Assembly: GCA_010405405.1 (NCBI GenBank)
Contig: MU004235.1
Span: 1,968,718 to 2,032,717, forward strand
DNA: 64,000 nucleotides
Reading direction: 5' to 3'
Source of the DNA: Microthyrium microscopicum
Taxonomy: Eukaryota; Ascomycota; Dothideomycetes; Microthyriales; Microthyriaceae
Shown: positions 11,085 through 36,490 of the stretch, in pieces
Layout of the letters: every line of letters starts with the position of its first letter
How positions within the stretch are numbered: the stretch's first letter is position 1
Translations under genes and position numbers: made by a program
Notes under the pieces: model-generated
What the model saw: the letters and a program-made list of their open reading frames with translations, nothing else
Databases searched by the model: none
Told to the model about the DNA's origin: nothing

Positions 11085-11317
11085 CCTCATCCAGCCTTTG
11101 CGATATGTCACGTTACAATTCAGGTTTTTTCTAGCCAAAGCGGACAAAACTCAGTGTAGCCTGGGGCGCCGAATAGCGCGGGACATCTATCAGTTCTCAA
11201 TGGCAACTCTCTAGGTAGCGCATCTGCTCTTTCTGATTTACATCGTGACGAATATTCGCAAGAACACACGGTCGAAACCTCGGCCCTTGATATCGATTGT
11301 TGTTGTCCATTATGCAA
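11085..11317 (-). pseudogene. Relic of an array member
   Basis: At about 11085-11165 the minus strand keeps a decayed copy of the module. TTTTGTCCGCTTTGGCTAGA corresponds to the CPLCQ codons of intact copies, and further on CATATC plus AAAGGCTG matches the CPYL-K-A codons. In frame it reads FCPLWLEK and then a stop. The preceding open frame up to 11317 may be remnant N-terminal sequence. Only nucleotide similarity supports this, so its true extent is unclear. Confidence 0.45.
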
Positions 11318-11806
11318 GCCTGAGGTGTAAATCAGACAACCTAAGGTAAGTTAGGTAACGGCTGGTTGTCTCTGCGAGAATATCCTTCGACGTTTTGAAG
11401 TTTGTCCGCCCAAATGTTGCAGTGTAGTCGCAGTACAGCATTCAAGGTGTCAAGGGAGACCATCAATTAGGTTATATTAGTGAAAGTCTTTGCGTAGATA
11501 CGGAATGGCGTTGATTTGCTCAAAACATCGTTAGTTCATTGCTTCTAAGATCAAAATCTACTTCGATAAGAAATAGAAAGAACTAGGCGGCTAGATTAGG
11601 TATCTAGATACCTGTTAGCAGCAAGCCTTAACGTGGGGCACACTTGACGCAATCAAATAGTAAATAGTATTTCCAGTTTCTAGTCGTCATACTGATGGTT
11701 CGGGATGAAGACTAACTTAACGACAATATGATGCCACATCTTCTGCGATTAACATAAGCGTTGTCTGCAGGGACTAAGTATAGAAACGAAGCTACTCACT
11801 CAATCT

Positions 11807-12249
11807 CTACTTCTGGCTTCCCTGCTCCTCCTTTCTCTTCTTTTCTGCCGCTCTCAGATATGGACAGAGTAAGCTACAAAAGCTTTCCTGGCATAGCGGG
11901 CAATCTGGAATTTGTTAACGTAGAGTTTCAAAAAAATATGTTTAGGCCAAAAAGCGCTGAAATGAGTAGACAGTGCCAACTCAAGGTATTCTTACCTCGA
12001 GGCCAGGGTTTGGGTGCTTGCGGATCTATGAGCAGAGTTAGACAAGTCGCCTCATGCTGTTATAAGCTTCAGTTTACCGTCCAATTTGAAAGCCTCCTCC
12101 CAGTTCATAGATCTTAGCCCGTCTAACATGAGCTCCAGAAGCGTTGGCCCAGTGTGAGCGTCCGGCGCTTCGGAACATTGCGGCTGGACTCCAGCAGCGA
12201 CTTGAATAACTTGGTACCCGGATCGAGGGTTGTTCACGTTTCCGCTCAT
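11807..12249 (-). CDS. Array copy A, with an extra intron inside the conserved motif
   Basis: Exons 12078-12249, 11996-12025 and 11807-11904 give 99 aa. Exon 1 starts MSGNVNNPRSGYQ and carries the CS motif as QCSEAPDAHTG. A phase-1 intron (12026-12077, branch CTAAC) leads to a 30-base exon encoding DPQAPKPWPR. A second phase-1 intron of 91 bp (11905-11995; GTAAGA donor, TTCCAG acceptor) interrupts the motif between WPR and CPLCQ, an intron no other copy has. The last exon encodes DCPLCQESFCSLLCPYLRAA and a short basic tail. All four cysteines are kept. The start could be upstream at 12330, but MS- starts are usual in the array. Product function unknown. Confidence 0.75.
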
Positions 12250-12819
12250 CTTGCAAGGAACTGATGGACTAAATTTGAACTTGAAAGTTTGAAGTTGTGG
12301 ATGGGCCAGAGGTGAGTAAGTTTGCGTCAATAGATTGGAGACGCGAGTGTTTATGTGTGGTAGTGAGCGAGAGAAGTTTTGGGGTAGATGATCAAGAGCG
12401 GATTCGAGGTTATTGTCACTGCGTTAAATTTATAGGTGACGATCAAACTACGCTAAGCTTCTTCTGAGTATAGCTCAGAGAAGAAGTCATTTGTCGAGGC
12501 TTCTATTCATCAAGAAAAGAAAGAACGATTTGACGTTAGTAAGGGCCAAAGTAGTAGGTAGAAGGTAGTATTTTGAGTGACAACTGCATGTACATTGGAT
12601 GGAACCACAACAATAGTATAGAACCCAACCACTTTTGCTATCGCTACTTTTTGATTTGCTTACTTGCCTTCAAGCTTGGATACATGGAATTACATTATCT
12701 GTCTCGACCCAAGGAACAATCCCCGACGCCACAATTCAGTCGACTTCGATTGTAACAAGCGATGAGTAACGTAGACGGCAAGGAGTTCAGAACGCACTTT
12801 CTCTATCCCTTCTCTGGCT

Positions 12820-13368
12820 CTTCCCCTGTCTCTTCCTCTGGCACAAAGCTGGGCCACGACATATAGGTGTGGAGTTATATTTGAGGAACAATAGAGTAGC
12901 TAACGCATTGTGCCTAGCTCGCTTACAAGGCAAACGCGTCGCGTCAGACCACCCTATATACGCTCTTGGGCTAGTGGCTGTTGAATCGGTTTGGCATTTC
13001 GTCTCTCAGGCGGATCATATTGGATGGTGATCCATTCGCCATTGCGTTGAGTAGATACAACGATGGTCAGACTTTTGTGGAAATTGTGGAGACGTTGTTT
13101 GCGAGACGCGATTTCTGCCCCTGCTCTCGCAACACAGCACTCGCAGGGTGGTGGGGAGAAGATGGCCATTGGCAAACAGATGGAAGCAGGTAGTAGAGTA
13201 ATGAGGTTTGCAGATGAATGTTTGCAGAGTTGAGAGATCTGAGAGGTTTGAGCGACTTGGAAGGTTTGGGAGGTTTGGGAGGTCTAAGCCCGGATTGCTT
13301 TGTACTGCTATGCTATGCCACTTTGATGAAGGGTCAATAAGTGAAATATCGGAAGAGCAGGTGCTCAA
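12820..13368 (-). pseudogene. Possible degenerate array member
   Basis: A minus-strand ORF starting at 13368 begins MSTCSSDISLIDPSSKW and runs to 13015; a second frame covers 12954-13175 with a cluster CECCVARAG. Downstream, 12826-12862, the sequence TTTGTGCCAGAGG followed by a Glu/Lys-rich frame resembles a collapsed CPLCQ exon and tail. The match is short and needs a deletion, so this is only a candidate relic filling the gap between copies A and B. Confidence 0.25.
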
Positions 13369-13653: not shown

Positions 13654-14144
13654 TTAATTCTTCTCCCCATCATCTTCTACGAAATGCTGCTTGGCCTGCG
13701 GATCTTGAACCTCCTCTTGACCTTGAGCCTCCCCTTGATCTTGAACCGCCTTCTGGTCTTGACTTGCCTCCTGGTCCTGGATGTCCTTCTGGCGCTTTAT
13801 TGAGGCCTTCATGTATGGACACAACAAATGACAGGCTCTTTCTTGACAGAGAGGACAATCACGAGGCCATGGCTTCGGTGCTTTTGGCTCTATGCGATTA
13901 TCAGTCTCACCATGACATAAGGAAGTGAGGTCTACATACCCTGTGGTGAGTCATCTTGCATTTGGGTCTCTTCGTACGCCGAACAGTATCGAAATAGCCA
14001 GGACGATGAGCCGGTATTTGGAGGAGCATGGTAGGCAATGCAGCTTGACTCGAGATAACTCATCTGCAACATTAGGTCTTGTAGGCTAGTAGCGTGTGAG
14101 GCCGGTTCCGCTGCTGGTACGTAATTTGTGGAGGACGACGACAT
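13654..14144 (-). CDS. Array copy B
   Basis: Exons 13940-14144 and 13654-13889, phase-1 intron (GTATGTAG...CGCATAG), 146 aa. The start is the MSSSSTNYV methionine; the frame is open further upstream. Exon 1 has the CS motif as FRYCSAYEETQ. Exon 2 begins EPKAPKPWPR and carries DCPLCQERACHLLCPYM with all four cysteines, then about 45 residues of Gln/Asp/Glu repeats (variants of DQEASQDQKAVQDQ) ending in an acidic tail. This Gln/Asp tail is unusual; other copies have Lys/Glu tails. A 17-bp minisatellite lies upstream at 14331-14420, in its presumptive promoter. Confidence 0.78.
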
Positions 14145-15483
14145 GATTCTTCCAAAGAAGCCTTTGCGGGTTGCAGCTTTGAAGTGGTCGCGGGCGATGC
14201 AATTTTTCTGCAAGGAATCTGAGAGAAATGAACGCACGTAATGGTAAGTAAAACAAGTTGCAAAGTGGATGTTAAAGACTTTGAACGAGGAGAAGCTCTG
14301 TTGTTTTAAGCTCGATTGAATCTATACTGTGGTGAAATATGCTGGTAGTGAAATTTGCTGGTGGTGAAATATGCTGGTAGTGAAATATGCTGGTGGTGAA
14401 ATATGCTGGTGGTGAAATGTCAGACTGCACCGGGTCTAACTTCTTCAAGAAACCTGAGGTACAACTAAGTTTCAGGATGGAGGTGTCGTTTTAACATATC
14501 ACATAGGCCGAACTCGTTAAGGAGCAACAGCTTCGCCATGCCCATCTCTACTCATCATCCTATATATGTGTTCTTAAATGTTGCATTTATCGGCATTACC
14601 TGGGCCGCTCTATGACGACTTTAGATGGGGACACCAGCAGCTGCAGTATCGCTTTTGGCCGAGCAGGCACCCACGATGCCATGTCTTAGACTGCTCTGCC
14701 TCTACATATCTCTCAATGCATTTGTAGCACGCAAAGCGTCAGGATGACCGTACTCTTTGGCTCTATTTATGAGAAAACCAAATTTTCGGACTGCTCATCC
14801 GGGGCAATAGAACATTGGGCGCTATGGGGAGAAGTACTTCATGACCAGAATTGAGAGGATCATTGCATCATTGGTGGTACCGCGCCCTTGAGACAATCAA
14901 GCAGGAAATTGGCGTCGCTTTTTACGCTCATCTCAAATTCGATTACGGCAACCTGTGAGCAAAAGTTGATTGCAAGGCTGTGAATGTTCTTCAGGGCGCT
15001 CAGACTCGTGCCAGAAGAACTCACACACTCCTCGCTGGCCATTTGTACGCTCGGTCGGACTGGCAGGGACGTCGCGAGCTTGGCCAATAGGAAATAGATG
15101 GTTCGTGAGTATATAATAGACGCTTCCGAACATGCCGGCTATCTGTTTCAAAAGTCTGTCGAGAAACAGGAAGGTATTAGGTTTCTGATGTAGGTTCTGG
15201 CGCAGTTGTACTAGAGGCTAGGCACGTTACATAGCAAGATTCAGTATGAGACGGGTATTGAAGCAATTGATTATCAACAATGACCATAGCTGGTCTCACA
15301 AAAGGCCGTAACCAAAGATCCGACGGCACTTGAAATTCCAACAGCAGACAAGAAAAATGTGGCTCCTCTGGACTTTGCTGCTCTGCTGCTTTGCTGCGCT
15401 AAGAAACGACTGTGTTTGCCAGAGCCTAAGAATACCTCAAAAGCAAACGCTCTGATCACGAGAAGCATGAAAACATCATCTCT
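14145..15483. other. Array spacer with one unassigned ORF
   Basis: A 1.3-kb gap between copies B and C. A minus ORF at 14860-15087 (75 codons, starting MAKLATSLPVRP) has protein-like composition but no CS or WPR motif, and I do not recognise it. It may be a fragment of an unrelated gene trapped in the array. The minisatellite at 14331-14420 is listed separately. Confidence 0.3.
14331..14420. repeat. 17-bp minisatellite, about five copies
   Basis: Direct repeats of ggtgaaatatgctggta with one- or two-base variants, in tandem just upstream of array copy B. Located between gene copies, so it could seed unequal crossing-over or affect the promoter; neither is shown. Confidence 0.85.
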
Positions 15484-15946
15484 TCAATATTTCCATTTGC
15501 CCTCGTTGAAAGCCTTCAGGTATGGGCAGCGAAGGTCACAGAACTTTTCCTGACAAAGCGGGCATCCACGAGGCTATGGCTTTGCCTCGGATTTTGTCTT
15601 CGTCTGCGTCTCTGTTGGTTGGTTGTTAGCACCTCACGTGGAAAGGAGATTTCGTTGCCTTACCGTCTTCTTTGGGTGGCTCATTATATAGAAGAGCACC
15701 AAAACAGATGAATCGTGTGTTGGGACAAACAGCTGGAGCTTGTACTAGAGGTCGGAACGCTAATATGTCATACCTGCCGTTCGTCCACGAAGGAGGCCAA
15801 CTTCGATAAACAATAGTGCTAGTACCGTAGACATCGCATACAATAAAGGCCCTTGGTGGGTTTAAGCCCGCACGAGGAGCCGTCAGGTGCAAAATCATTC
15901 TTGTGCGACGGGGCGTAAGGGGGAAGGAGAGATTGTTATGGGACAT
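15484..15946 (-). pseudogene. Array copy C, nonsense at the invariant Trp
   Basis: Exons 15664-15946 and 15484-15611 with the usual phase-1 intron join in one frame, but the codon for the invariant Trp of WPR is TAG (15574-15576). Past the stop the frame reads PRGCPLCQEKFCDLRCPYL, with all four cysteines intact, and ends KWKY. Exon 1 starts MSHNNLSFPLTPRR; its CS motif is degraded to FICFGALLYNEPP. The intact downstream frame suggests a recent single-base lesion. Without the module the product would be about 107 aa. It belongs with copies E and K in the CDLRC subgroup. Confidence 0.8.
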
Positions 15947-16275: not shown

Positions 16276-16643
16276 CTATGTCTGCCAGATCTCCTCCTTC
16301 CACTCTTCTTCCTGGGCCTGCTCCTCAGCCTTATTCTTGTTGGCCGTCTTCAACTACGGGCACAGCAAGTGGCAATAACGGTCTGGCATAAAGGACAATC
16401 ACGAGGCCAGGGCTTGCCCTCTTGGATACAGTCAGCACAGGTAGGTATGTAAGTAGTTAAACAAGACTTCTCTATTTTCACACCTTTCTTCTCGACCTCT
16501 TTGATCTCCTCGGCAGCTGGCATAAGCTCAGAGAGCTCACAAAGTCCTCCTGCCTGCAAAGGTATCGAAGACCAAGCCCACACGCTAGCGATATTGACCT
16601 CTTGGCCATCGTCATATTGTGCGCGCCTGAGTTTTGTTGACAT
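16276..16643 (-). pseudogene. Array copy D, frameshifted in the motif
   Basis: Exon 1 16484-16643 (MSTKLRRAQYDDGQE...), probable phase-1 intron 16421-16483 (GTGTGA donor, CCAAG acceptor), exon 2 from 16420. The module starts correctly (EGKPWPRDCPLCQ), then one base is missing and the frame becomes TVIATCCARS-stop at 16350. In the shifted frame the expected RYCHLLCP is still visible, but the next codon is TAG instead of Tyr. So there are two lesions. The tail in the original frame runs to about 16276. The first two cysteines would remain in a translated product. Confidence 0.75.
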
Positions 16644-17206
16644 AGAAACGCCCCGTAAAGCACATGATGCATATATTTGCTCTCAGGTCCAGCGCAAGTC
16701 CAAGGCTACTTCAATGCTGTAACGAGTGTATGGGGCAGACATATGTTGTGGAGGGTCTGGAGGTGGTCGAATATGTGGCGGTGGAAAGAAAGGTGCAGCA
16801 CAGGGCGCGAAGCCTCGCGGCAGGAAGCTGCCGTTCATTTTTGTCGAGGAATAGTCTGATTAATAATGACAGCTTTTATCCCTGACGCGGAATGCTGAAG
16901 GAAGTGGTGAGCTTTTGAACGGGAACGTACGTGCGAAGGCAGGAAGGTGATAGTACGTATTTCGAAGAGCGGGTCGTTGTGAAGAATAGCAATATGTAAG
17001 TAGGTGCTATGGGTAAATGGCTGGAAGGAGTTGAAAAACATTCCGGTGGCAGCTACATTCCTCTTTCTGTGTCCAAGTGCAAGTGCAAGTGAAATGGCAG
17101 GAGCGGCCATAAATCTGGAAAATCCTTTGTAGCCGTTGACGAGATGTATCGATTTCGCTCTCATTTTCTTCGCCAGAGACTCGCAACCGGTCCATCGTTC
17201 GCAGAC
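16644..17206. other. Array spacer, nothing recognised
   Basis: About 560 bp between copies D and E. Only short shadow ORFs are present; no WPR or CS motif on either strand. Confidence 0.35.
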
Positions 17207-17814
17207 TCACTTCTTATCCTTCTTTCCATTATCTGCCTTTAGATATGGGCAGCGGAGGTCGCAGAAACGGTCTTGACAGAGTGGACACCCTCGTGGCCAA
17301 ATCTCTATCTCTTTCTTTGGCTCTTCTGTAGATCGTTAGTCCGGAAATATTAGAACAGTCGAACTCGCGTACCAAGCCTCACCACATCGAGTGGCAGATC
17401 CGGCCAAGCTATCATATAAGACCATTCTGGCCACTCTGCAGAGCATTGAAACCAGCGTGGAAGATCATAGGCACAACAAAGTGGAAATCCCACATGATCG
17501 TAAGCAGTTCGACCTGGGAAACCATTTGGATCTGTCCACCTAAAGATGGTAATATCTCGCAATAGGTTGCCATTTGAATTGTCGTACATAGCCTCTTTCA
17601 ACCGCTTTGCTCGGGCCTGTATTTGTTGCAGCTGCTTGGTTGTAGGAGTATAAGGTCTCGGTAGGTTATGGGTATAACTGTCATATGGAAGACCAGCATA
17701 GTTACAGAAATCGTCTACCTGACCGACAGCGAGGTTCCAGGCCATGCGAATTTGGTTTTCATTCATGCTAGATTCTGGCTGGTCCTTATTTTGCCTTTTA
17801 TCAGTGGTATTCAT
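17207..17814 (-). CDS. Array copy E, with the N-terminal helical domain shared with G and H
   Basis: Exons 17373-17814 and 17207-17325, phase-1 intron (GTACGCG...CTAACGATCTACAG), 186 aa from the MNTTDKRQ methionine; an upstream in-frame Met lies at 17859. The N-terminal part has an amphipathic helix block (QLQQIQARAKRLKEA) and then TIFRWTDPNGFP, aligned with the equivalent parts of copies G and H. The CS motif is FQCSAEWPEW, close to that of copy R (SCSEHPEW). The last exon reads EEPKKEIEIWPRGCPLCQ, then DRFCDLRCPYL, with a short basic tail DNGKKDKK. All cysteines are intact. Confidence 0.8.
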
Positions 17815-18133
17815 CTCGAAAGAGGAGGATGGAAGTTGATGAAGAAAAAAGAACTTCAAGCTGTAGAAATTTATTGATAGGAACTACCGTCCTTGCAAGC
17901 GGGTATTTGAGTTTGCTCGGAGGAAGGTTTCAAAAACTTTGAAAGACTGAACAAGCTAAGCAGAAAGTAAGTGAGTGAAAAGTGGGAAAAAGGTGACTTA
18001 TTGCAAGGTGCTGTCAAGATAATTGAAGGTGAGGCGCAATGAAAGCTTCTTTGATTCTTATGTCTAAGGTTTACTTGTTTCCTCCGGTTTTGAGCCGCTT
18101 CATCTCATCTTCCTGCCTTTTCGAGGTCTTTAG

Positions 18134-18501
18134 TTACGAACGCAGAAAATAGCGGAAATGGACCTGACACAGCGGGCAATTTCGAGGCCATGGCTTCTCT
18201 TGCCCATCTGGAAATACATTAGCAAGTTGACTTGGATGCGAAATACGTTTCGCATACACTTGTCTTCTTTCTGATCAACATCCTCGAGATACCAATGATA
18301 TATATTTGGCCGTCCATGTCGCTCTGCGAATTTGCGCGAGGAAGGCTGAGAATCGAGGGTAAGGAGACAACGATGCTCCGAGTCGTAAACTCGTCCCAAG
18401 CTCGCCACCAAATTCATCATTTTGGTCCGCCTAGTAAAGATTACTCCAGCTAACAGGTAGATGTCCGGGGCATCTCCTCGCCCGCTTCTGTCTACTGCCA
18501 C
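18134..18501 (-). pseudogene. Array copy F, C-terminal cysteines lost
   Basis: Exon 1 (18258-18501) and exon 2 (18134-18207) still splice in phase 1. The module starts GQEKPWPRNCPLCQ but continues VHFRYFLRS-stop. The third and fourth cysteines are Arg, the following His is Tyr and the final Tyr codon is TAA. The residual pattern (two Cys kept, two lost) argues for slow decay rather than a new function. Exon 1 starts MAVDRSGRGDAPD; the first exon may begin further upstream. Unlike copies C and D, the lesions are mostly substitutions. Confidence 0.65.
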
Positions 18502-18557
18502 ACTTAGGTTTGCATGGTCCGAAGCTCTTGTAGAGTAGGGACATGAGAAGGGCCAAA

Positions 18558-19165: not shown

Positions 19166-19798
19166 TTACTCGCGCTTCAATCGCTTTTCTTCCTCCGCCT
19201 TCTTCAAGTAAGGACACAGCAGATGACATAACGACTCTTGGCAAAGAGGACAATCGCGAGGCCATGGTTTTTCTGCCTTCTCTGACCCGTAGTTAGCAAT
19301 GCAGTGGTAAGGTAACAATAAGCTTAACATACCAGTCGGTACCAATGGAGTCGGCTTTTGAATGTGGTGTTCATCGCGAATATGTGCTGGAAGAGGCCCA
19401 GCCCAATACGCGCTCACAGTCTTCTCGGAGCAGGTATAACCATGCGTGTTCACATACATCACTGGTCGACGATTCCTATCCAAAATTGTCGTACCAAGAG
19501 GGCTGCGTCGAAGCAGCGCCGAGAAAGTGACGCCAGGGTTCTGAGCGACGTTGCATTCCATCAGCTGTTGTAGTCTAGCTTCAAGGTTGTTGAGGTCATC
19601 GATAGTTGGCTTGAACAGAGGCGCTTGAGCAACTCGAGGGACGTGGCCGAAACCAAGGCCTGTCATTATTTGTCCTATTCGACCCATTGCGATACCATAC
19701 ATTTTGGCGATGTGCGCGTTGACCTGCGCTTCATTCTGTTCGTCGGTCTGCGCAGATGATGGCTCGCTTTTCGCTGCTGTCTGGTTGGCGCTTTCCAT
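19166..19798 (-). CDS. Array copy G, with a stopless 51-bp intron
   Basis: Exons 19333-19798 and 19166-19281 give 193 aa from the MESANQTAAK methionine. The intron 19282-19332 (GTATGTTAAG, CTAAC branch, GGTCAG) is 51 bp, a multiple of three, and open in frame, so a retained form would simply add 17 residues. The N-terminal half has a helix block (DDLNNLEARLQQLMEC) and the block TTILDRNRRPVMYVNTHGY shared with copy H. The CS motif is TCSEKTVSAYW. The module is KPWPRDCPLCQ, then ESLCHLLCPYL, with tail KKAEEEKRLKRE. All cysteines are intact. Confidence 0.82.
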   Translation of the reverse strand: MESANQTAAKSEPSSAQTDEQNEAQVNAHIAKMYGIAMGRIGQIMTGLGFGHVPRVAQAPLFKPTIDDLNNLEARLQQLMECNVAQNPGVTFSALLRRSPLGTTILDRNRRPVMYVNTHGYTCSEKTVSAYWAGPLPAHIRDEHHIQKPTPLVPTGMLSLLLPYHCIANYGSEKAEKPWPRDCPLCQESLCHLLCPYLKKAEEEKRLKRE

Positions 19799-20055: not shown

Positions 20056-20798
20056 TCACGATAGGATCCGATCCGAGATGTCGCCCTCATTTAAAGTATG
20101 TTCCAGGTGCCTCTGTGGATCTCGTTCGAGCACCCTTAGCTTTTCCTTCTCAGCCTTCTTCAGATAAGGACACAAGATGTGACAGGGACTCGTCTGGCAT
20201 AATGGACAGTTTCGAGGCCACGGCTTATCGACATCTCCTAGAAAGTTTTATATTTTCCGAGCATGAAGCTGGGCTGAACATACCACTTGACATGGATCGA
20301 GGAAACACGTTGTGCTTGAGTTCACTGATTCGTGCTGCTGGAGGAAGGCCATCGAAGCAAACCAGGTGGAGCGTCAGAGCATCTATATCCTCTCGTGTTG
20401 ACGTGCAAGATTGGATGACCCATTCGATCAAACACTGTCAGACCAGATTGGCCAGAGGAGATGTTTAGATGGAAAGGTTCATCAGGGCGTTGAGCGGTAT
20501 TTGCATCCCGCAATCGCTTCACGCGACGCTGCATGGAGCGCAAGTGTTTGATTGTAGGCGTGGGCGCAGTATTGTGGTTATAAATGACAGTGCCGCCGAT
20601 GGTCGCGAAGATTTCGGTCAGCTCACGTACTGCGGCATCGTACATATCCTGAATTTGCGCGGCAGTGAGTTGTGGAGATGTCTCTTCAGTTTCTTGCCCT
20701 TGATTTTTGGCTTCCATTTTGGCTTGAGGATTGGTTGCGGGTATTGAAGAGGCGAACATTACAATTTGGAGCAATGCACATGTGAGTAGTCCGAACAT
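20056..20798 (-). pseudogene. Array copy H, probable frameshift; signal-peptide-like start
   Basis: Exon 1 runs from 20798 (or the MEAKNQ methionine at 20717) to 20284; exon 2 is 20056-20237. The first half matches copy G (LTVFDRMGHPILHVNTRGYR) and holds the CS motif RCSDAPPGLLRW. After it the frame ends at a stop near 20322, while the frame that leads correctly into the splice site (ISELKHNVFPRSMSSG) is shifted by one base. The module itself is intact: DKPWPRNCPLCQ, TSPCHILCPYL. Counting from 20798 the protein begins MFGLLTCALLQIVMFASSIP, which looks like a signal peptide and is unique in the array. Confidence 0.6.
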
Positions 20799-25737: not shown

Positions 25738-26245
25738 CGCTACAGTGTTGTGTCGCTACAACACAGGCAGGACTGAGATGCAACACACCAGGATCTGTTC
25801 GGAGACGATCTGATCGCCGTAGAACCTGATCGAGTGACTAATATGATGCGTCAAGAATCTCAGAAGGAGCAATTTAGACAATGATGCGGATGGGTCGTGT
25901 AGAATCAGGTTATGATACAGACGATGAAGCTAGGATTGTGATTTGGAGGTTCTTGAGGAGAGTACAAGTAAGAGAGTCGCATGGACAGCTGAAGTATAGA
26001 GATAAGCCACAGCCTTGATGTAGCAGTGACCTTATGTTTGAGGTGAAAATCAAAGCGCCTTTCTGATATAAGTCTAATCAGTTATCCAGATCCAACACCT
26101 CAAACTTCCTGCATTCGTCCACAGTTCTTCTGCGCGCCTTCAAATAGAGTTACAATAGTGCCAACATGGTTGTAGCCGCGGAAGAACAAGAAGTGGCCTT
26201 GAAGCAACAACGGATGGAGTCTAACCCGCAGAGAATTTCTGTCAT
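25738..26245. other. Array spacer, nothing recognised
   Basis: About 500 bp between copies L and M; no motif or repeat found. Confidence 0.35.
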
Positions 26246-26755: not shown

Positions 26756-27681
26756 TGTGTCGACTGATAGCAGAGACAGGCTCGTGTATTTTTGATTACA
26801 AGGTTAGGATGCTGTGAGAATTACGACTGGTGTGAGCCTATTGGTTTATGATCGCAATGGAGCGGAAGCAGATCCTGATACAAAGTTTCGTTCGGGTTTT
26901 ATAAGAGAAACCATCACACATCTTACAGCACCAGTTACAGCTTCCTGTATCGCTTAGTTTTGACATAAAGAGCAAATGGTCACGCCAATTCTGTTTCTAG
27001 CTATATCTTTAAAGGGAGCCATATCTTCAATAAGTTACAAGTGTCTTACTCAAATATATTATCAGATCATTCTTACATTTCGCAGTGATGACCTTTGTGG
27101 GCCAGGGGCCAATAGACAGAGGGAGAGAGAGATGCAGTAGGATATGTTCTTCAGCGTTGGGACGATTCATTCTTCACCGCTGATGTAACTGCGAGCATCG
27201 TCATGATTTTGCGAGATATGCGTTCTTAACTTTCTGCATCGCCTGGTTTGCTTTCTTGGTCGCCGTTGTACAGGGGCCTACTTTAGTATATAACCTGATG
27301 TAAGTGTGGAATCGATATTTAAGATCACAAGACTTTTGCCATAACTGCATCTTGGCAAGATGAAAGTGATAAGAGTCAATGATAATGACAAGCTATATTG
27401 GGTCAGTAAGAGAGCATCAGCTCAAGATGTGGCGAATATCTGTCTTGTATGTACTGAGAAGGCATAGTGCTCCACTACTGACCCATCCTCTGCGCTATAG
27501 TTTCTTCTTTTCCCCTTCGAAGTTTCCCGTTTTCCCCTTTCTCTTCAAAAGGCGGGCTTGACGAAGGTACACAGAAGCAGCAATGGTGATCTTCACAAAG
27601 GGTTCACCTGGCTGCGGCTTTAACTCCTCCACTCTAGCACTTCTGTCACTATGGACTTGCCTTCACGACAAATGTAGATAC
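26756..27681. other. Array spacer, possible decayed last exon at ~27480-27590
   Basis: This 0.9-kb gap lies where the last exon of copy N should be. On the minus strand around 27480-27590 the sequence CTGTGTACCTTCGTCAAGCC resembles the LCPYLKA codons of other copies and is followed by a Lys-rich frame (LLKRKGKTGNFEGEKKKL) ending in a stop. No CPLCQ remains, so the match is suggestive only. Confidence 0.25.
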
Positions 27682-28050
27682 CTATCCTTCTTCGTTTGGC
27701 TTCATGGTCGGGGGCTCGAGCTTGGGGTTCACTTGGAAACTTCCATCTGGTAAAAAGACCCCATATGGCTTGAAAAGCTCCTTTACCAACTGAGACATGC
27801 TCGGTGCGTCAGAACATAAGAATGTGCCCACCGGGGGCATGCGAAGAGGGGGAATAGGATGAACCCTCGCAGGCAAAGTCTTGCCGGGGTTGTTCTGCAT
27901 ATACACATGTTCGCAGGTGTTCCAGATTACCTGACATATTTCAATATGTCTAGGCAGTACTACCCGTAATGGGGCAACCGCTGGTTGCTGAAACCGCTGT
28001 TGGTTTTGGCTGGGAGTTTGGCTTGAGTTTTGTGCTGGTAGAGCCGACAT
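27682..28050 (-). pseudogene. Array copy N, first exon only
   Basis: A 122-codon ORF starting MSALPAQNSSQTPSQNQQRF with a clear CS motif (GTFLCSDAPSMSQL), but the frame ends GGA-TAG just before a GTATCT donor-like site, and no WPR exon follows. It is therefore a copy that lost its last exon, or a stand-alone protein using only the N-terminal half. Residues between (PRHIEICQVIWNTCEHVYMQ) look folded. I favour a truncated copy, but the open first exon could still be expressed. Confidence 0.6.
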
Positions 28051-28630
28051 GTTCGCTGGTGTTGCAGTGTGGTCTGAAAGAGCTTTGCAAGAGATTTGCT
28101 CCAGAGACGACTGTCAATGTCAGTCCTTGGGTTCGAGATGTAAATTGTCAATGTCGGTCCTTGGGTTCGAGATGTAAATTATATAAAGAACGTCGAGGAT
28201 GAGATCTATTCTCAAGATGCTAAATACCCGAGTACTGTGAAGTTACCTACTGAGTTTCAGTGAATAGATATACCAAAAGCGGGTAGGTGGACAGGCTAGA
28301 AGAAACTGATGAGTGACCACATGAAGTCACTATTCCCGCTGGATATTTGGTGCGAAATGTTTGTTACTTTAATATTATAGATGAAGACAACATCTGAGGT
28401 AGATGAAATGCTTTGAAGAGAGGTACGTAAGCGCTAAGAAGGCGTTTCATGACTCTCATTTTTATTCCCGAATCCAGTAACGTTGACAAATGACTCGTGA
28501 GATCCTCTCATCAATCCCTTTTGTGTAGCTACCACGCTGAAGGACATTGACCTCAAACTCTGCGCCGTCTCATTTCTAGCTAGTAGCGACTAAGTATTCA
28601 AGTACGTTGCGTCGTTGTTCGAAGGCTCTG
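28051..28630. other. Array spacer with a 34-bp duplication
   Basis: Upstream region of copy N. Positions 28112-28179 are two direct copies, differing by one base, of a 34-bp unit beginning tgtcaatgtcagtccttggg. Nothing else supportable. Confidence 0.5.
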
Positions 28631-29018
28631 TTACTTGTGTTCGTCCTCCTCTTCGTCGACAGGTTCCAGCTCATCAATCTTTCTCTTCAGCTTAGCCTGT
28701 CTTTTGCCCTCAGCCTTAAGATACGGACACAGCAAGCTACAAAAGCGATCTTGGCACAGAGGGCAACCGCGTGGCCAAGGCTTGTCCTCTAGGAAACATG
28801 GTTAGATCAAATTCTAATGCTTAATAGAAGGCAATTGCCTAGTACGCACCTTTCGGTTTTGATGGAATTTGGGAAAGAGACGGCTCGGGATTTCTGGACA
28901 TGTCCGAAGGAAGTTCTGAGCAGACAGGGGCACGACGCGGTCTAACTCGGGCACGACGCCGGCTAACTCTAGGCGGAAGAACGGTACGTTTTCGAGCCGT
29001 CAATATAGTAAGGACCAT
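28631..29018 (-). CDS. Array copy O
   Basis: Exons 28850-29018 and 28631-28788 (GTGCGTAC donor, TTTCCTAG acceptor) give 108 aa, one of the shortest intact members. Exon 1 begins MVLTILTARKRTVLPP, is strongly Arg-rich (RVSRRRARVRPRRAP), and runs straight into the CS motif VCSELPSDMSRNP. The module is EDKPWPRGCPLCQ, then DRFCSLLCPYL. The tail KAEGKRQAKLKRKIDELEP then EEEDEHK is a probable short coiled coil. All cysteines are intact. Confidence 0.8.
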
Positions 29019-29408
29019 GTTGCCTGCAGACTGAAGTTTGGCGACTGAAGTTTGGGCGTATATTGTTGTTGAGGGTGTGAACTTTGCTGTGCAGGGCGGT
29101 GAGCTTTATAATCGCAGCTCAATGTGGGAAGCGGAACTTGGAAAGGCGATGTTCGAGAGATGATGTTGGAGAAGCGAGGTCAAAGACATCAAAGACATCA
29201 AGCGCTCCCGTTTATATAAATACTAGGTTGAGCCAATGGAAGCGGCCCATAATTCAAGTTACAGCAGTAAGCTACCTACCTTCCCGTTAGCATGATTGAC
29301 GCTCACTGATGCACCTCTTTGGACTTTTATGCCCGCTTATTGGCCGACTGGCCCTTCTTTACCTTCACCTGCTTGTTTGACGCCACCTCTTTAATTGTAA
29401 AAGCCCGC
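29019..29408. other. Array spacer, nothing recognised
   Basis: Spacer between copies O and P. Two near-identical short segments (cttta...tgcccgcttattggc and aaaagcccgcttatttg) occur near 29325-29415. No gene. Confidence 0.3.
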
Positions 29409-29807
29409 TTATTTGAGGTTTTGCGTTTGATTCCTTTTGTTGTTCTTTGTCACTGTCGCCTTCTTCTTCTGCTCAGCCCTTAGATATGGGCAGAGCAAAT
29501 GGCAACAGTGGTCCTGGCAGGGAGGACAGTTTCGCGGCCATGGCTAGGCTTAGACTCTGCCTCTGGCTAAACAATGATGAGATGCGATTCATTGACACAG
29601 GGACTAGTACTTACTCTCTGGCTCCATGGAGTACGAAGATCTTGCCAGAAGTGACTCGGCCCAATCCATAGGCTCTTCAGAACAGAGCGGCACAGGAGGA
29701 GGTGGCATTAACCCTGTATTTTGGAAGAGGACAAGGTAGTTCAAGTGGCTGTTGGCTGAGGTTGTCATATAACTCTGGGGTGTTGAGACATCCTCACAGC
29801 TGCTCAT
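29409..29807 (-). pseudogene. Array copy P, 5-bp insertion before the motif
   Basis: Exon 1 29615-29807 (MSSCEDVSTPQSY..., CS motif PLCSEEPMDWAE) ends in a good GTAAGT donor in phase 1. The last exon (29409-29556) reads AAG, then five extra bases CCTAG, then CCATGG, which shifts the frame and puts TAG directly before Pro-Trp. Beyond it the module is intact but has CPPCQ instead of CPLCQ: WPRNCPPCQ, DHCCHLLCPYL, tail RAEQKKKATVTKNN. No alternative acceptor restores the frame that I can find. Probably a recent pseudogene. Confidence 0.65.
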
Positions 29808-30318
29808 GATGGCGAAAATATCGCCTTACCTGTTGTTTAGTCCAGCGAAAGCTTTTATATAGCTCAGAATAGACAAAAGAAATTGCAAAAGCGAGCAGTC
29901 TAGTGATGCTTGGCGATTTGAAGTTTCTACATCTAAAATAAAGGTAGACAGAATAGATGGCCCGCTCATTTTGATTGTGATGGAACATCACTCATGGGGA
30001 TTGGATATTCAGAGACACGATGCACTTGAACATTTCAAATTTGACGACTCTAGTTAATGTTATACCCCCTTGGTAGGAATCAAAGGCTCTTCTGTTTTCA
30101 ACGGACAATGATATCTTATAAGGTACAACGGGTTACGCCAATTGATTTATACAACGCACCAAGGGCTACCCAGCAATCATTGCCATTCAGTTCTCCACTC
30201 AAAGCGTCGTCCCCTTCTGTTTTGATTTCCAGCCCAAACATAATTGATGCCAACAATTCAGACTTCCATCACCCCCAAATCATTGTGTCAGCTCAGTTTT
30301 ACAGCTGATCATGATGGT
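29808..30318. other. Array spacer, nothing recognised
   Basis: Spacer between copies P and Q; short ORFs without motif. Confidence 0.35.
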
Positions 30319-30579
30319 CTAGTTGTCCTCCACATCCGCTTGCTGCGTCTCTTCTTCTTTCACCTTCTTTTCCGCTTGTTTCTTTTCATCTTCTCTCTTT
30401 TCCTCTTGTTCTTTGTTCTTCTCGTTCGCAAGCTTTTCTTCCTCCTCTTTCTTCTTGTTCGCCGCTCTGAGGTATGGGCAGAGGAGGTGGCAGTAACGGT
30501 CTTGACATAGTGGACAGTTTCGCGGCCAGGGCTTGTCTTGTCTTGGTGGGCTCTTTTCTTCGCTCCTGGAGGACGACAT
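30319..30579 (-). CDS. Array copy Q, minimal single-exon member
   Basis: An uninterrupted 86-codon ORF: MSSSRSEEKSPPRQD, then KPWPRNCPLCQ, DRYCHLLCPYL, then a 50-residue Lys/Glu tail predicted as a single charged helix (KKKEEEEKLANEKNKEQEEK). There is no N-terminal variable domain and no CS motif. It either represents the module in isolation or is the 3' part of a copy whose first exon is lost and which gained a start codon. All four cysteines are intact. It is the simplest natural test of what the module does alone. Confidence 0.72.
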   Translation of the reverse strand: MSSSRSEEKSPPRQDKPWPRNCPLCQDRYCHLLCPYLRAANKKKEEEEKLANEKNKEQEEKREDEKKQAEKKVKEEETQQADVEDN

Positions 30580-31075
30580 CTTGAGCTTTGCACTGGCTGC
30601 TGTGTGTTCGATGTAAAGGTATGGTTGCTATGGACAGGAAAAGGTAAGTGGCGGAAAAGAGGATAAAAGGCCTTAAAGCTTAGTAACAATTCCGAGTCTG
30701 GAACCTTATGCAGCTTTTTCGATAGTTAATCAGGGACTCGGATTTCAAGAGCGGCAGAGTAATTCCTCCTGTTAAATACATCTGTAGCTCAAGATTCCAT
30801 TTCCCTTAATTGCTACTTTTGAATACTACCTCTCTCGTGACTTGTTCCTTCGCTTGCTATATATCTGTCATAGATCAGGATATTTAGAACATTCAAGGTC
30901 AAATCAGGGAGCTCCCTAATATAGAGACTAGAACCTTCAAAGCGAGAAAGTATAGATATAGAAAATCAGTAAGCATTCAAAGCTAACTTCATCACTTGAT
31001 TCTGTTTAGCGACCACGGGCTCTACACAATAACTTTCAATTTCCATGCAGCAAAGAGTATCTCACATCTCGAACT
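30580..31075. other. Array spacer, nothing recognised
   Basis: About 500 bp between copies Q and R; AT-rich, no motif. Confidence 0.35.
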
Positions 31076-31658
31076 CTAGGCCTTCTTAGCCTCTTCAGCT
31101 GCTGCCTCAACCTCGTTTTCGAGCACAGTCTTCTCCAACAAGTCAGTGACTTCTTCCACCTTGGCCTTCTCCTCCAACTGAGCCTTCTTTGCGGCCTTCT
31201 TTGCAGCCTTCTTTGCGTACTTCTTTGCCTTCTTCACATTCTCCGGTTTCTTCGCATTCTCGGCCTTCAAGTAGGGACACAAGACATGGCAGACCCGATC
31301 CTGGCAGAGCGGGCAATTACGCGGCCATGGCTCTATATTCGCAGGATGATTAGTCTGTGCTTGATTATTCCAGAGGATCATGATTCTTACTTTCGGGGTT
31401 GTTCGTGTCTTGAGCATCAATTTGCTCTTCCTCGGACTCATCAAAAATCCACTCAGGGTGCTCCGAGCACGAGTTGGGTGGGAGGCTGAACGGTAAGTAA
31501 CCCATGAGGGGTGTTTGATTCTGGAATTGCAAGAAACTGGTGCGAATGCCAAAATGAGGTGTCATGCCACGAAACGGGTGCAGCCATGGGCGGGAAGCAG
31601 GATGGTTGCTTGAAATTTGGTGTCGGACGCCATTTGTCCGATACAAGGTTGGGTCCAT
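31076..31658 (-). CDS. Array copy R
   Basis: Exons 31391-31658 and 31076-31332 (GTAAGAATC donor, GCGAATATAG acceptor) give 174 aa. Exon 1 starts MDPTLYRTNGVRHQISSN; the CS motif is SCSEHPEWIFDESEEE. The junction falls directly before Pro-Trp: K-PWPRNCPLCQ, then DRVCHVLCPYL. The tail is a long Lys/Ala/Glu helix with repeated KKAAKKA units, then VTDLLEKTVLENEVEAAAEE. All cysteines are intact. Confidence 0.82.
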
Positions 31659-31967
31659 TGGGGATTGCAGCTTTGCGCGAGTTTGTTGAGTTTGCGGATT
31701 GTCTGGGTGCGAGAGATAATGTGATGTTTGCGGTTGTTGGTGGTGAACGCGATGCGGAGATGGATGACGATGCAGAGATGGATGACGATGTTGGGCGCGA
31801 AGATAGAGTCGAATGAGCGAGCTATGGATTAAAACTAGTGACAGTCATGACAAGCGAGTCCCGGATTCAGGTGGTGAAGTCACTTGGACTAGCGGTTTAT
31901 CATTGAGGTTACAAAAGGATGTTGCCTTTCCTACCTATCTAATCAAATGGAAATCGACACCTCAAGT

Positions 31968-32667
31968 TTAAGCCTTCTCGATGTCTTGTTCCTCATCCCC
32001 GTCCTTCTCCGTCTCTCCCCCCTTTTTTGCCTTTTTCTTAGCCTTCAGATATGGACATAGTAGGTGACAAAATCGATCCTGGCAGAGAGGGCAGTCGCGT
32101 GGCCAGATCTTCTCCGGTTTATCTAAGCGCATTAACGACGCTGGTATCATAATGTAGCACAATTTACTAACCTTCTGCTGGTGGAGGTGATGGATTCACT
32201 CGTACAAAAGCTGAAGTTAAAGGATTGAACCACCAATTTTCGTTTTCGGGGGAGTTCCAAAATTGTGAACAAACGGGAGGACGATTGGCGACATACCCTA
32301 TCAGAATGTTAGCTCAGATTATGGATCGTTAAACGGTATAGATGACGTGGCTCTATGATCCTCCCCAAGCTCTTCACCCGAGGTGCTAGTAGGAGCCATA
32401 GAAACCAATAGTGACACGTCATTTACTTTGCAAGTCAACGTTGTTGGGGAGAGGTATGCGAGCAGAATGGTGCTTACATCTGGCTATGGCTAGATGATAG
32501 TCGTAGGATGCATGCTGGAAGAAGTTGTTCGGCCGAATGGATGCTCTGTGGGCTGCAAGGCGTCGTTGTTTGTCCTCGTTATTCTTCTGTCTCTCTCTAG
32601 ATTCTTTCAGCCGCTGGACATGTCCATTAGTCTGGTCGAGATGTTTGGATTCACTACGAAGGCGCAT
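31968..32667 (-). CDS. Array copy S, three exons
   Basis: Exons 32478-32667, 32172-32297 and 31968-32122 give 156 aa. Both introns are phase 1: the first is 180 bp (GTAAGCAC...CTGATAG), the second 49 bp (GTTAGTAAA...GCGCTTAG). Exon 1 (MRLRSESKHLDQTNGHVQ) is an Arg/Lys-rich helix. Exon 2 begins at a split Trp codon and carries the CS motif PPVCSQFWNSPEN. It is 126 bp, a symmetric 1-1 exon. The module is KPEKIWPRDCPLCQ, then DRFCHLLCPYL, with a Lys/Glu tail. All cysteines are intact. Confidence 0.75.
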
Positions 32668-33057
32668 TTTGCGTATCGATGGCGACTGGCGGAGGTAGGA
32701 GGGGAGTGGATGACGATGGGTTTTGTCTGTGTATTAGGTAGGACGATGGGTTTTGTCTGTGTAGGTATTAGGTAGGACGACAAGAATTGTTTTATAGGCG
32801 TGAAGTGTGGCAAATATCAATAAATAGCGAAAGAGCGACCCGCTAGCCGCCCAGCACTTACCTTATTGCGACCGCAAGCTTGATATCGCTTTCTAAATTA
32901 GGAAGTATTCAACAAGGCGAATAGGCATCGACTCTCGCCCACTCAGAAATGGAAGGAGCAATAGTCACACCCAAGGCAATCTATCAGACGATATAGAATT
33001 ATAGCCGATTTCATAAGAAGACCGCCAACTGGCTGGGTAGCACCAGCACATCAAAGC
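32668..33057. other. Array spacer with a ~30-bp duplication
   Basis: Spacer between copies S and T. Positions about 32712-32779 contain two copies of a unit with acgatgggttttgtctgtgt followed by attaggtag. No gene. Confidence 0.4.
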
Positions 33058-33740
33058 CTACACATTTTCCGCCTTTGCCTGTTCCTCTTCCTCGCGCTCC
33101 TTGGTTTCCTGTTCCTTCTTCTTCTCCGCCAGCAAATATGGGCATAGCAGATGACAGAATCGGTCTTGGCACAAAGGACAATCTCGAGGCCAAACTTCAA
33201 CCTCGACTTCTGTAAATCTGTTAGCAACGTCTAGTGATTGACTAGACATCAGAACAATCTGACCCTTCTTTTCCGTCTCAAACACAAGCGGCGGTGGCGA
33301 CCACAGCGACAAATTATGCGGCTCACGGACAAGAGTCATGTAATCCTTAAGGACTCTATTCAACAAGTGATATTGGGTGTATTCACGCCATCCCCCTTCA
33401 GAGCAACTTTGGCCAGGTGCGGGACGGGCTATAAAGACCATTAGTTCCGATTTCGTGGACAAGACAGCACAGGAGACCCACGGGTTGATGCGTTATATAG
33501 CTCACGCATTCTAGCTAACATAAGCGTGCGCCGCGCAGTGTATTGCGAAGCTTGGAAAGCACGAAGTCTTCTGGAACGAGGATCCGCAGCTGGTTGAAAT
33601 TCCTGGGAAGCACGAAGTCTTCTGGAACGAGAATCAGCTGCTGGTTGTGATTCCTGGGAAGCACGAAGTCTTCCAAGGCGTCCTTGGCGAGCTGTTGGAT
33701 GGTGCAACGAAGACCCGCGTGTAGTATAATCAGGGCGCAT
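33058..33740 (-). CDS. Array copy T, N-terminal 17-residue repeats
   Basis: Exons 33506-33740, 33264-33428 and 33058-33209 give 183 aa; all introns are phase 1. Exon 1 encodes nearly three tandem copies of RRLRASQEFQPAADPRS from a 51-bp repeat (about 33545-33690). The symmetric middle exon (165 bp) has the CS motif GQSCSEGGWREY and ends PPLVFETEKK, which copy U shares. Intron 2 (33210-33263) is 54 bp, stopless, with a weak GTCAGA donor, so the in-frame retained form may be the main product. The module is EVEVWPRDCPLCQ, then DRFCHLLCPYL, with a Glu/Lys tail. Confidence 0.75.
33545..33690. repeat. 51-bp repeat inside copy T
   Basis: Nearly three direct copies of a 51-bp unit containing gaagcacgaagtcttctgga, in frame in exon 1 of copy T, encoding RRLRASQEFQPAADPRS-type units. 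Confidence 0.85.
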
Positions 33741-34031
33741 TTTCGCGAATTGGGCAACGTAGGCTGTGAGCGCGCAGAATGTATTGTGTGGACAAAAGAG
33801 TTTAGATCAATGGCTGTAGGCGGTGGGTGGAAGAAGTGGAGGATGAATTGAACGAAGCAGAGGAAGTGAGAAGCTTAAAGAAGAACAATCTCAGAGGTTG
33901 GAGGACGAGACCAGGAACTACAGGTGACAGAACGTGTTAGGTAGGCGTCACGGCTCCTGTTCCCTTGAGCGACTCGAGGCAAGTTTTGAGCGAATTGTTG
34001 GCAACATGTCAGATGGAAGTAGCTTTTCACC

Positions 34032-34687
34032 TCATATGTCCTCCTGTTCCTTCATTTCGTCGCTGTCATCCATGGTATTCTGCTCCGATTCGTTTTCCTG
34101 CTCCGATTCGTTTTCCTGTTCCTCTTGCTTCTCCTTCGCCTTCCGCTTCTCACTAGCTCTGAGATACGGACACAGTAAATGACAAACTCGATCCTGGCAA
34201 AGTGGACAATCCCGCGGCCAAATTTCAACTTTGTCTTCTAAGATTTGTTAGTATCGCCTTATGACTCCGAACATGAGCATAAGCTCACCCTTCTTGTCCG
34301 TCTCAAACACTAGCGGTAGTGGCGTTTTCTGAAAATACGAGATTCGCGCCTCATCGAGGAGAGCAAACTTCTCATTAAGCATGTCCATTTGGAGGTCGCG
34401 AGATGATTTCCCATGGGAACAAGATTGGGGGTTGGTCTGATGCCCTAGATAAACCGTCAGCTTAGGTTCAGTGAAAGCACAAGAGACTTACAAGCCAACC
34501 ACTGATCCATTTCACTGAATCTGTCCCGCAGGCATCTTCGGAGTGCTGCCCGCCGTGCTGCGTTATGCGCTTGAAGTCTTCTGAGACGACGAGCTAGGTT
34601 GGGTGTTGGGTTGCGCTTAAACTCATCGTCTAGGGCATCTGTCGGATGGCGGAATGGCGACGTGCTTGTGTTGGAATCACGGCGCAT
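34032..34687 (-). CDS. Array copy U, sister of T
   Basis: Exons 34492-34687, 34289-34444 and 34032-34237 give 185 aa. Exon 1 (MRRDSNTSTSPFRHP) is an Arg-rich helix (NLARRLRRLQAHNAARRAAL). The middle exon begins at a split Trp codon, is symmetric 1-1 (156 bp), holds the CS motif PQSCSHGKSSRDL and ends LPLVFETDKK, almost identical to copy T. The module is KVEIWPRDCPLCQ, then DRVCHLLCPYL, and a Glu-rich tail with a duplicated QENESE unit. All cysteines are intact. T and U are likely the product of a recent duplication followed by replacement of exon 1. Confidence 0.8.
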
Positions 34688-35047
34688 TTTTGGATATGAA
34701 CCGTTCCGCGTTATTTAGTAGAAGTAAGACTCTCCGAGAGGATCTGCGGTGCGCAAGAAAGAACAAAGTTGGTAAGGATGGCGGGTAGTGGTGGAATGAG
34801 ATGAAGATGGACAGATTCAGAGGGCGAAAGGTAGAAAAGATGGACAGATTCAGAGGGCGAAAGGTAGAAAGGCGTAAACAAGCTGGCACAGACGAAGACG
34901 GCAAGAGCAATGCGAAATAGGACTTATTCGCTTTTTTGAGGTGACGCACCGGGAGTGAATGGGAGGACCGGATTTCAAGCAAGATATTGGACCAGAGCTG
35001 TTTTTGATCAATTGTAATGAAAAGTTTCTTATTGTTCTGCTTGCTTT
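34688..35047. other. Array spacer with a 33-bp duplication
   Basis: Upstream of copy U. Positions 34805-34870 are two exact-looking direct copies of a 33-bp unit starting agatggacagattcagaggg. No gene. Confidence 0.5.
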
Positions 35048-35697
35048 TCACAGGCCGCTACTCTTAAAGTTCTGCTCCTCTTCGTCTTCTTGTGCCTCCT
35101 CAGCTTTCTGCTTCTCACTAGCTTTCAGATATGGGCATAGTAAGTGACAGAACTTTGTCTGACACAATGGACAATCCCTAGGCCACGGCTTCTCCCCTTT
35201 CTCCTTCTCTGACTATCATTAGCACCGATAGTCTTTTTCAATTCAATAAAAGCACGTACTGCCCCAAGCATGGTCAAAAGATTCCACGAAGGTATCCAAA
35301 ATATCATCGAGGTCGTCTAAGGAGGTTACTCTGAATGTGGGACGCTCAGAGCAGAATGTTCTGCCCGGGTTGACTGCTTAGCATGTCAGCTTAGTCCTGT
35401 CAATTAAACTTTGTTTACGAGGGGGATATGACCGATAGTTCCTTGAGCGTTGATGATGCTCGCGGTCAAGGCTTGCAGTTGTTGCGAGAAAGCTTGGATG
35501 CTTTGGTTGACAGCGATCCAATTTCGAGGAGGCTGGTGTGGTGGGTTTTGCATTTTGGCGAGAGTTATGTTTTGTTGGCGGTTCGAAGGAAGACTGATGG
35601 AACGTGGCGGGAGAGACAGATGGTGTCGAAGCTGTGGGGTATTTGGTGATGGTAAAGTTGGATTTACTTGAAGCTCATGAGGTGGCCATAAAGCCAT
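35048..35697 (-). CDS. Array copy V, three exons
   Basis: Exons 35433-35697, 35260-35373 and 35048-35208 give 179 aa from the MALWPPHELQ methionine (upstream Met codons at 35730 and 35781). The symmetric middle exon (114 bp) contains the CS motif GRTFCSERPTFRVT and an acidic stretch DDLDDILDTFVESFDHAW. The intron 1 donor that keeps frame is GTCATA, which is weak; a GTAAAC site nearby would break the frame, so the exon 1 junction is uncertain. The module is KGEKPWPRDCPLCQ, then TKFCHLLCPYL, with a Glu-rich tail. All cysteines are intact. Confidence 0.68.
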
Positions 35698-35833
35698 TGA
35701 GATGCAAACAACGTTGGAGCTAATAATCATGGGAGCCGTGATATGAAGCAACTTGATAGACTGCCACCGCGACGACAACAATATATCGCGATTTCTATCA
35801 TCCCATGTACATTTAGCAGTATCAGCTCAATGT

Positions 35834-36490
35834 CTACATTCTATCGACCTTCTTTCCAGCCTTGGCTTTTCGTCCCTTTTCGACAACCTGCCACTCTCCT
35901 CGCTTGACTTCCTCTTCATACTTCCATTTCGCCTCACGCTCCATTCGCTCCGCTCGCATCCGTGCTTCTTCGCGCTTCTGCTCCTCCTCATGTTTCTGTT
36001 CCTCAGCCCGCTTGTTCGCCGCCCTCAAGTACGGACACAACAAGCTGCACACGCTCACCTGGCATAGCGGGCAGTCTCTAGGCCATGGTGTTTCGGACTC
36101 TTTCGGCTTTTCCTCTTCTATCTTCTCCTGGTCTAGTGAAAGTTAGCATCGCTTTGGTCTGATATAGGAGAAAATACGTACAGTTTTTCGTGGAGCGAAA
36201 AGGGAAAAAATACATGAGCAAACGATCAGAGTAGGCACCAAACGAGGCAGTCGACATTTCTGAACAATTGACATGGCGGTTCGCCTGACGCCCTATCGAC
36301 TTGTTAGTTAGACTGCCGATTTGTACTGGGTTGAACGGCCTTTACAGTTGACAACGCCCTGAAGCTGCAGTTGTCTGATTGCTGCCAATGCATTCCTTCG
36401 ATTTGACACCCACAAGTCGGTCGCGGCCAGACGTCGTGCTTTGCGCTGCACCTCCTCAAGGCTTTTGCGCCCTTTGCGACTTTTTGGCAT
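35834..36490 (-). CDS. Array copy W, rightmost member
   Basis: Exons 36346-36490, 36182-36292 and 35834-36132 give 184 aa. Exon 1 (MPKSRKGRKSLEEVQRKARR) is a basic helix like those of S and U. The symmetric middle exon (111 bp) starts at a split Trp codon and has the CS motif HVNCSEMSTASFG. The module is SETPWPRDCPLCQ, then VSVCSLLCPYL, followed by a 70-residue Glu/Lys/Arg helix (HEEEQKREEARMRAERMERE). All cysteines are intact. The frame is open upstream of the chosen start to 36805. The vacuolar transporter gene follows on the same strand. Confidence 0.78.

Follow-up and report, generated by a model that had tools for sequence, protein, structure and literature searches.

Two kinds of described fungal system come closest to the locus reported here. 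Diversified recognition families in genomes subject to repeat-induced point mutation (RIP), and the capture, amplification and RIP of a gene whose original stays intact, are already known (PMC1805685, PMC6710886). The HET-D and HET-E proteins of Podospora anserina join a NACHT domain to WD40 repeats, which undergo concerted evolution and reshuffling, and they function in non-self recognition (PMC1805685). In Pseudocercospora fijiensis, a hAT transposon captured histone H3; the captured gene was amplified and inactivated by RIP and the original remained intact (PMC6710886). The locus considered here is a tandem gene array in a 64-kb stretch of the Microthyrium microscopicum genome (hereafter the window, with positions counted from its first nucleotide), which is part of contig 6 of an assembly of 36.9 Mb in 20 contigs. 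Like HET-D and HET-E (PMC1805685), it is a fungal family in which constant parts are combined with diversified ones, and RIP acts in its genome, but no NACHT or WD40 domain was detected, the N-termini are mostly unique and no homogenisation was seen. The interpretation that we favour as a whole, with a confidence somewhat short of even, is that of an old, lineage-restricted, adaptor-like family under recognition or conflict pressure, with variable N-terminal domains set on a constant zinc-knuckle-like module.

Pattern scans of the translated frames and a profile search of the window recognised 22 modules, all on the minus strand, and two remnants likewise on that strand; a third remnant there was judged by eye. 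A first-pass annotation made from the sequence alone had described a single-strand array of 23 copies, 17 of them with intact last exons and all sharing a near-invariant C-terminal module. The array is real, 23 is about right for 22 modules and three remnants, and we obtained the same count of intact last exons (u1-u7, u9-u14, u16, u18, u21 and u22). The genes have a common order: a variable N-terminus of 24-196 residues, a 'CS' anchor, a phase-1 intron, the module WPRxCPLCQxxxCxLxCPYL, and a tail of 8-153 residues that is rich in Lys and Glu in most copies (lengths from 16 models). The CS pair lies 22-53 residues before the W of the module in 16 of 16 models, where shuffled sequences are expected to give 0.92 (15-60 residue span). 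The last intron is 47-61 nt long and is in phase 1 in 12 of 12 of our own models, judged from their coordinates, and in the database model of u5; u7, which is short and intronless in its database model, stands outside the set of 16. The near-invariance of the module is borne out by 11 invariant columns in an alignment of 18 modules (u8, u17, u19 and u20 omitted), with the cysteine spacing C-x2-C-x4-C-x3-C. Copy u22 has an extra intron (11905-11995) between WPR and DCPLCQ that is absent from the other modelled copies.

The expansion that produced this array is ancient. Among 19 modules, a set that takes in the broken u8 and u20, 18 of 19 core codons have a variable third position, and four-fold degenerate sites differ in 739 of 1029 comparisons between modules, a proportion of 0.718 where saturation would give 0.744. 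Such saturation of synonymous sites rejects a recent expansion, and modules that lie further apart in the array are not significantly more distant from one another (Mantel r 0.09, p 0.14); the earlier suggestion of rapid tandem expansion thus fails. That 11 columns are nevertheless invariant places the module under constraint. The dense array had also been thought odd for a fungus with RIP, and RIP is indeed strong in this genome, as the nine repeat copies described below attest, but there is no paradox. No two units match in DNA over more than 164 nt (75% identity), and all matches of at least 100 nt are at or below 76.5%. The limits for RIP of linked copies are 80% identity and 400 bp (PMC1805685); the units are therefore not RIP targets. 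Duplication by the assembly was rejected as a source of the copies on the same longest match and on the absence of N in the window, and an assembly echo appears an unlikely explanation of the array. In own-genome searches, which scored the best candidates only, we found no second array locus: 24 of 24 protein matches (E ≤10; 24 candidates scored) fell inside the array, as did all 21 matches of a degenerate DNA pattern with 0-1 mismatch, and the three 2-mismatch matches outside it equal the control level (2).

Part of the array is also present elsewhere in the genome. A DNA search with window positions 23501-36900 gave 21 matches, 18 of which are the two-part matches of nine places to 30024-32676, a segment that holds three complete genes, u5, u6 and u7, introns included. 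The nine places, a lower bound as 13 of 14 candidates were scored, lie on contigs 2 (three), 4, 5, 7, 12 (two) and 13, and belong to a large repeat, which is low in GC wherever a stretch of it was fetched; the longest single match between its copies is 22.7 kb, and identities are about 88-91%. The pair followed furthest has 30 kb in common, and its homology ends at a run of N. Partial pieces of the repeat occur elsewhere in the genome, and a 17.2-kb repeat query listed more copies and shorter pieces (one of two such queries scored 4 of 11 candidates). The nine copies are RIP-mutated. Within the segment their GC content is 18-23% against 46% in the window, their TpA/ApT ratio is 1.54-1.63 against 0.68, and 611 of the 766 differences between one copy (L005) and the window are C>T or G>A. 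At copy-variable sites where at least one copy has the window base, 630 of 632 are C/T or G/A. The simplest reading is one capture followed by amplification and then RIP; the capture took place at the DNA level, since the introns of u5 and u6 are retained in the repeat copies.

The window segment bears no trace of RIP. With the u6 block described below omitted, a window T or A stands opposite C or G in a copy at 4 of 236 sites in TpA context and at 54 of 1076 sites in any other context, and RIP of the array segment itself was rejected on these counts. The segment shows no RIP damage though it must once have been similar enough to nine heavily mutated copies. One possibility is that the segment was captured from another strain, another that RIP damage was selected against.

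Starship giant elements are very large fungal mobile DNA with host-gene cargo. The repeat is likewise large and carries host genes, but the genome has no match to DUF3435 over the cut-off, a count to be read with the RIP damage and N stretches that limit detection and may hide one; a single match below the cut-off (E 0.0018) lies on contig 2, outside the repeat stretches fetched. There are at least 107 RVT_1 matches in the genome, most with internal stops, and none inside the fetched, RIP-damaged repeat stretches. At contig 2:337485-350185, an RVT_1 match (344226-344624) lies between two large-repeat pieces separated by about 7 kb, and may mark a retroelement inserted into a further repeat copy. 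Reverse-transcriptase matches with long stop-free frames were seen at contig 6:2136722 and contig 2:1274184 (782 and 1443 aa). The histone H3 case differs in involving one intronless housekeeping copy whose original may bear RIP traces (PMC6710886), whereas three neighbouring orphan genes with introns were taken here and the original shows no RIP trace.

The RIP-mutated copies and the array can be compared in a way that RIP does not disturb. RIP makes no transversions, and our comparison counted these, using nine copies outside and five inside window positions 31380-31849. Noncoding DNA has 41 transversions in 1374 positions (3.0%). This figure bears on the origin of the family. It is very improbable, in our judgement, that the family arose in the large mobile repeat, which then seeded the array: the repeat carries three members, but array members are mutually saturated whereas repeat and array segment differ by only this 3.0%, which makes the shared copy younger than the array, and the compared repeat stretches (24.8-35.1 kb) match the window nowhere outside 30024-32676.

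Transversions are few in most of the coding sequence. The modules have 1/75 (u5), 1/81 (u6) and 1/75 (u7), in total 3/231; the tails have 3/63, 0/177 and 4/135, respectively. The introns have 5/180 and 0/49 in u5 and 0/58 in u6, and the stretches after the anchor have 2/120 (u5, CS to module) and 5/78 (u6, CS to intron). These counts make it quite unlikely that the array is merely a row of old duplicates becoming pseudogenes. Five of 22 copies are indeed broken or doubtful and there are three remnants, but 17 of 22 last exons are intact despite saturated synonymous sites, and the modules and the u6 tail are nearly free of transversions. Before the anchor of u5 there are 10 transversions in 210 positions, all at codon 55 or later and eight of them within 27 nt (32479-32505, minus strand).

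The N-terminus of u6 behaves differently. Before the CS anchor it has 50 transversions in 182 positions (27.5%), about nine times the level of the noncoding flanks, and the excess ends at the Cys codon of the anchor. The fast block (31472-31690, minus strand) comprises this N-terminal coding part and about 30 nt upstream of the ATG. Codon positions 1, 2 and 3 have 16/61, 19/61 and 15/60 transversions; given a 3% background, selection on point mutations alone is insufficient for the block, since the rate at third positions is on a par with that at the other two. The 87 nt adjoining the anchor resemble the repeat copies no better than random array segments do, 330 of 2979 of which score equally well or better (353 of 2980 with a second copy). 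The sequences argue either for a deeper history of the block than of its flanks, as with very old alleles, or for its replacement by block exchange.

The main rival to the adaptor reading, less probable than it but weightier than any other alternative, holds that this is an ordinary adaptor or regulatory family in which only the module matters and the N-termini are weakly constrained, neutral spacers. Spacers of this kind would fit the finding that similarity between the N-termini of different copies is mostly undetectable (only u3/u4 and u15/u16/u18 are related at E 1e-3), as well as structure models that are of low confidence over much of their length. The rival is weakened, however, because drift should not exceed the neutral rate, yet the u6 N-terminus is at 27.5% against 3.0% in noncoding DNA; nor would it lead one to expect 54 codons without a transversion at the start of u5, or a CS anchor kept in every one of the 16 models.

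Several observations weigh against the reading that we favour. The fast block is known from one gene, u6; the first 54 codons of u5 have no transversion, and the N-terminus of u7 has 3/51 but u7 hardly has one. The 100 nt of u6 adjoining the ATG are still recognisably related to the repeat copies, with 0 of 2972 and 0 of 2978 random segments as good, and the entire block is so too (0 of 2952 and 2 of 2954); a clean swap of the whole block was considered and had to be softened, its ATG-side half being weakly related. No donor of the block was found in a RIP-immune scan of one repeat copy (contig 7) against window positions 10501-37500, which gave the shared segment and then weaker matches, of which the 40 listed lie at module or tail regions or within the segment. 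The divergence, moreover, is that between array and fossil copy, and either side may have changed.

The module was searched for relatives. When 5.8 billion proteins were searched with a profile and 8000 candidates scored, 12 proteins came up at E ≤10; 11 of these, all from one contig, map to the minus strand of the window, bar one or two junction residues, and the remaining one, P0012 (E 3.5), matches by chance. No relative outside M. microscopicum was found in protein searches seeded by shared exact 5-residue words, in which 3, 2 and 8000 candidates were scored and distant relatives may be missed. Six typed models had no Pfam match over the cut-off. The 11 database models gave 16 weak Pfam families (best E 0.0067), a different one almost every time, and seven NCBIfam families, each matched by a single model (best E 0.0048); HET, NACHT and WD40 domains were absent from the Pfam scans of both sets. 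Profile and single-module searches of PDB gave no significant match to the module. The family thus stays unrecognised, as the first-pass annotation had it.

The nearest lead for the module, which is not significant, is half of a HIT-type zinc finger. HIT1 was the first of two sequences in the profile search of PDB (E 0.55), with CPKCGVRYCSLKC aligned to CPLCQ...C.LLC; it was not among the matches of the single-module search. The likeness to zf-HIT in HIT1 and BCD1-type proteins lies in the spacing C-P-x-C-x4-C-x-L-x-C and in similar residues: the second half of zf-HIT, C-x2-C-x4-C-x3-C, is present in the array module, and an over-cut-off zf-HIT match of the same genome, CPRCSTRTCSLEC, shows the module's cysteine spacing. 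The zf-HIT family (PF04438) was among the matches of three of 18 modules (best E 0.064) and of one of 11 longer models (E 0.96), but Redoxin was as frequent among modules (three of 18, best 0.11) and zf-CRD was ahead among longer models (two of 11, best 0.013). The zf-HIT profile run over the genome (E ≤10) found seven places, none in the array. The definition of zf-HIT includes a first C-x2-C pair and final His/Cys ligands. In the module alignments, no Cys is invariant or nearly so in the stretch from the CS anchor to the W, and His is not conserved downstream of CPYL. The module also differs from zf-HIT in its hypervariable N-termini and arrayed genes; as it has neither the first cysteine pair nor the final His/Cys, we do not file it as a member.

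Structure models were poor overall, which counts against our interpretation: mean predicted local distance difference test (pLDDT) was 56.6 for u18/P0003 (13 sequences) and 63.3 for u10/P0005 (11 sequences). The u10 model has a confident helix at 136-150, C-terminal to the knuckle (block pLDDT 82-92), and that of u18 has confident helices at 19-39 and 59-77. Two features that might have unified the family were rejected and so likewise tell against our interpretation. Amphipathic N-terminal helices exceed shuffles in one of 16 models, and a shared promoter motif did not emerge from 16 upstream stretches (best 7-mer p 7e-4 among 3112 tested). By inspection, with no predictor run, none of the 16 model N-termini resembles a signal peptide, and on that inspection alone the proteins are probably intracellular, a further reservation. 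That they are instead secreted effectors, diversified against a host or competitor, seems barely credible to us. Tandem arrangement, lineage restriction and the presence of cysteines would suit effectors, but the N-termini do not, and to our knowledge secreted proteins do not typically have a CPxC knuckle or Lys/Glu-rich tails.

In the adaptor reading that we favour, each protein would carry an N-terminal domain of its own, joined to one constant C-terminal zinc-knuckle-like module; a helix comes next, and then, in most copies, a charged tail. The putative knuckle may dock on a common partner, leaving the variable part to bind targets that change; adaptors that serve many targets through one shared output would be expected to combine a constant knuckle with a variable front. 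N-terminal variety could arise by block replacement or exchange or by the upkeep of very old alleles, the CS anchor and the last intron, itself conserved, framing the blocks. Recognition or conflict, whether over self and non-self, mobile DNA or viruses, is the likeliest pressure given the block-wise N-terminal divergence of u6, and mobile DNA would carry array genes as cargo; we infer such a role for the array, as the first-pass annotation had done. A bolder version, which we regard as rather doubtful, is a diversity locus of a new kind: an ordered set of single-specificity adaptor genes whose N-terminal cassettes would be replaced as blocks up to the CS anchor, with a shared zinc knuckle giving one output, the array persisting because its units remain too different for RIP, and mobile elements taking groups of genes as cargo in conflict.

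Gene models were made with a simple scoring script, and modelled array genes reach from 11807 to 36736, slightly past the end first given. Database models were used for u1 (35834-36736; P0002), u2 (35048-35697; P0001), u4 (33058-33740; P0007), u5 (31968-32667; P0004) and u7 (30319-30579; P0011). Our own models are u3 (34032-34687), u6 (31076-31658), u11 (25067-25737), u12 (23117-24422, the longest), u14 (21158-21813), u16 (19166-19798) and u18 (17207-17814), together with u9 (28631-29018), u10 (26246-26755), u13 (22209-22820), u21 (13654-14144) and u22 (11807-12249). The last five match P0008, P0005, P0010, P0009 and P0006 in a by-eye comparison, as u18 matches its part of P0003. Ten of the 11 database models recovered are single array genes; the other, P0003 (16353-17814), is a public model fusing u18 and u19 into one protein. 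As only 11 array proteins were recovered, several intact copies may be unannotated.

The five broken or doubtful copies are damaged in different ways. A stop stands immediately 5' of the module in u8 (29409-29807; probably broken), where no phase-1 acceptor was seen; exon 1 of u15 (20065-20798, start approximate) contains a stop; the module of u17 (18113-18199) is decayed; that of u19 (16290-16700, ends approximate) has a frameshift and a stop; and TAG replaces the W codon in u20 (15484-15946, start approximate). Two remnants are weak matches of the module profile, at 14613-14687 (22.6 bits) and 12647-12721 (9.6 bits), the next-best match in the window having 2.8 bits. The third, near 27.6 kb (27490-28050, ends approximate), was judged by eye: its N-terminal exon contains 'CSDAP', and the end of its module is degenerate; just upstream of it lies a tandem pair of 34 nt (28112-28180, 97% matches). 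The array is flanked by a minus-strand F-box open reading frame (ORF; 9825-10577), which is cysteine-rich and adjoins the array on the same strand, and by an amino-acid transporter ORF (37131-39239). Scans for Rfam families and tRNA genes found none. Literature searches, judged by titles and abstract openings, gave nothing on the array, the family, its anatomy or the fossil.

The locus indicates that a multigene family can persist under RIP, its units being too diverged for this genome defence to reach. The captured copies, mutated by RIP, preserve the array in fossil form; comparing the two by purine/pyrimidine state, which RIP leaves unaltered, reveals constraint as well as fast blocks in orphan genes without known relatives. 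Should the N-terminal blocks turn out to be allelic, the array would represent a recognition repertoire outside the HET and NLR kinds.

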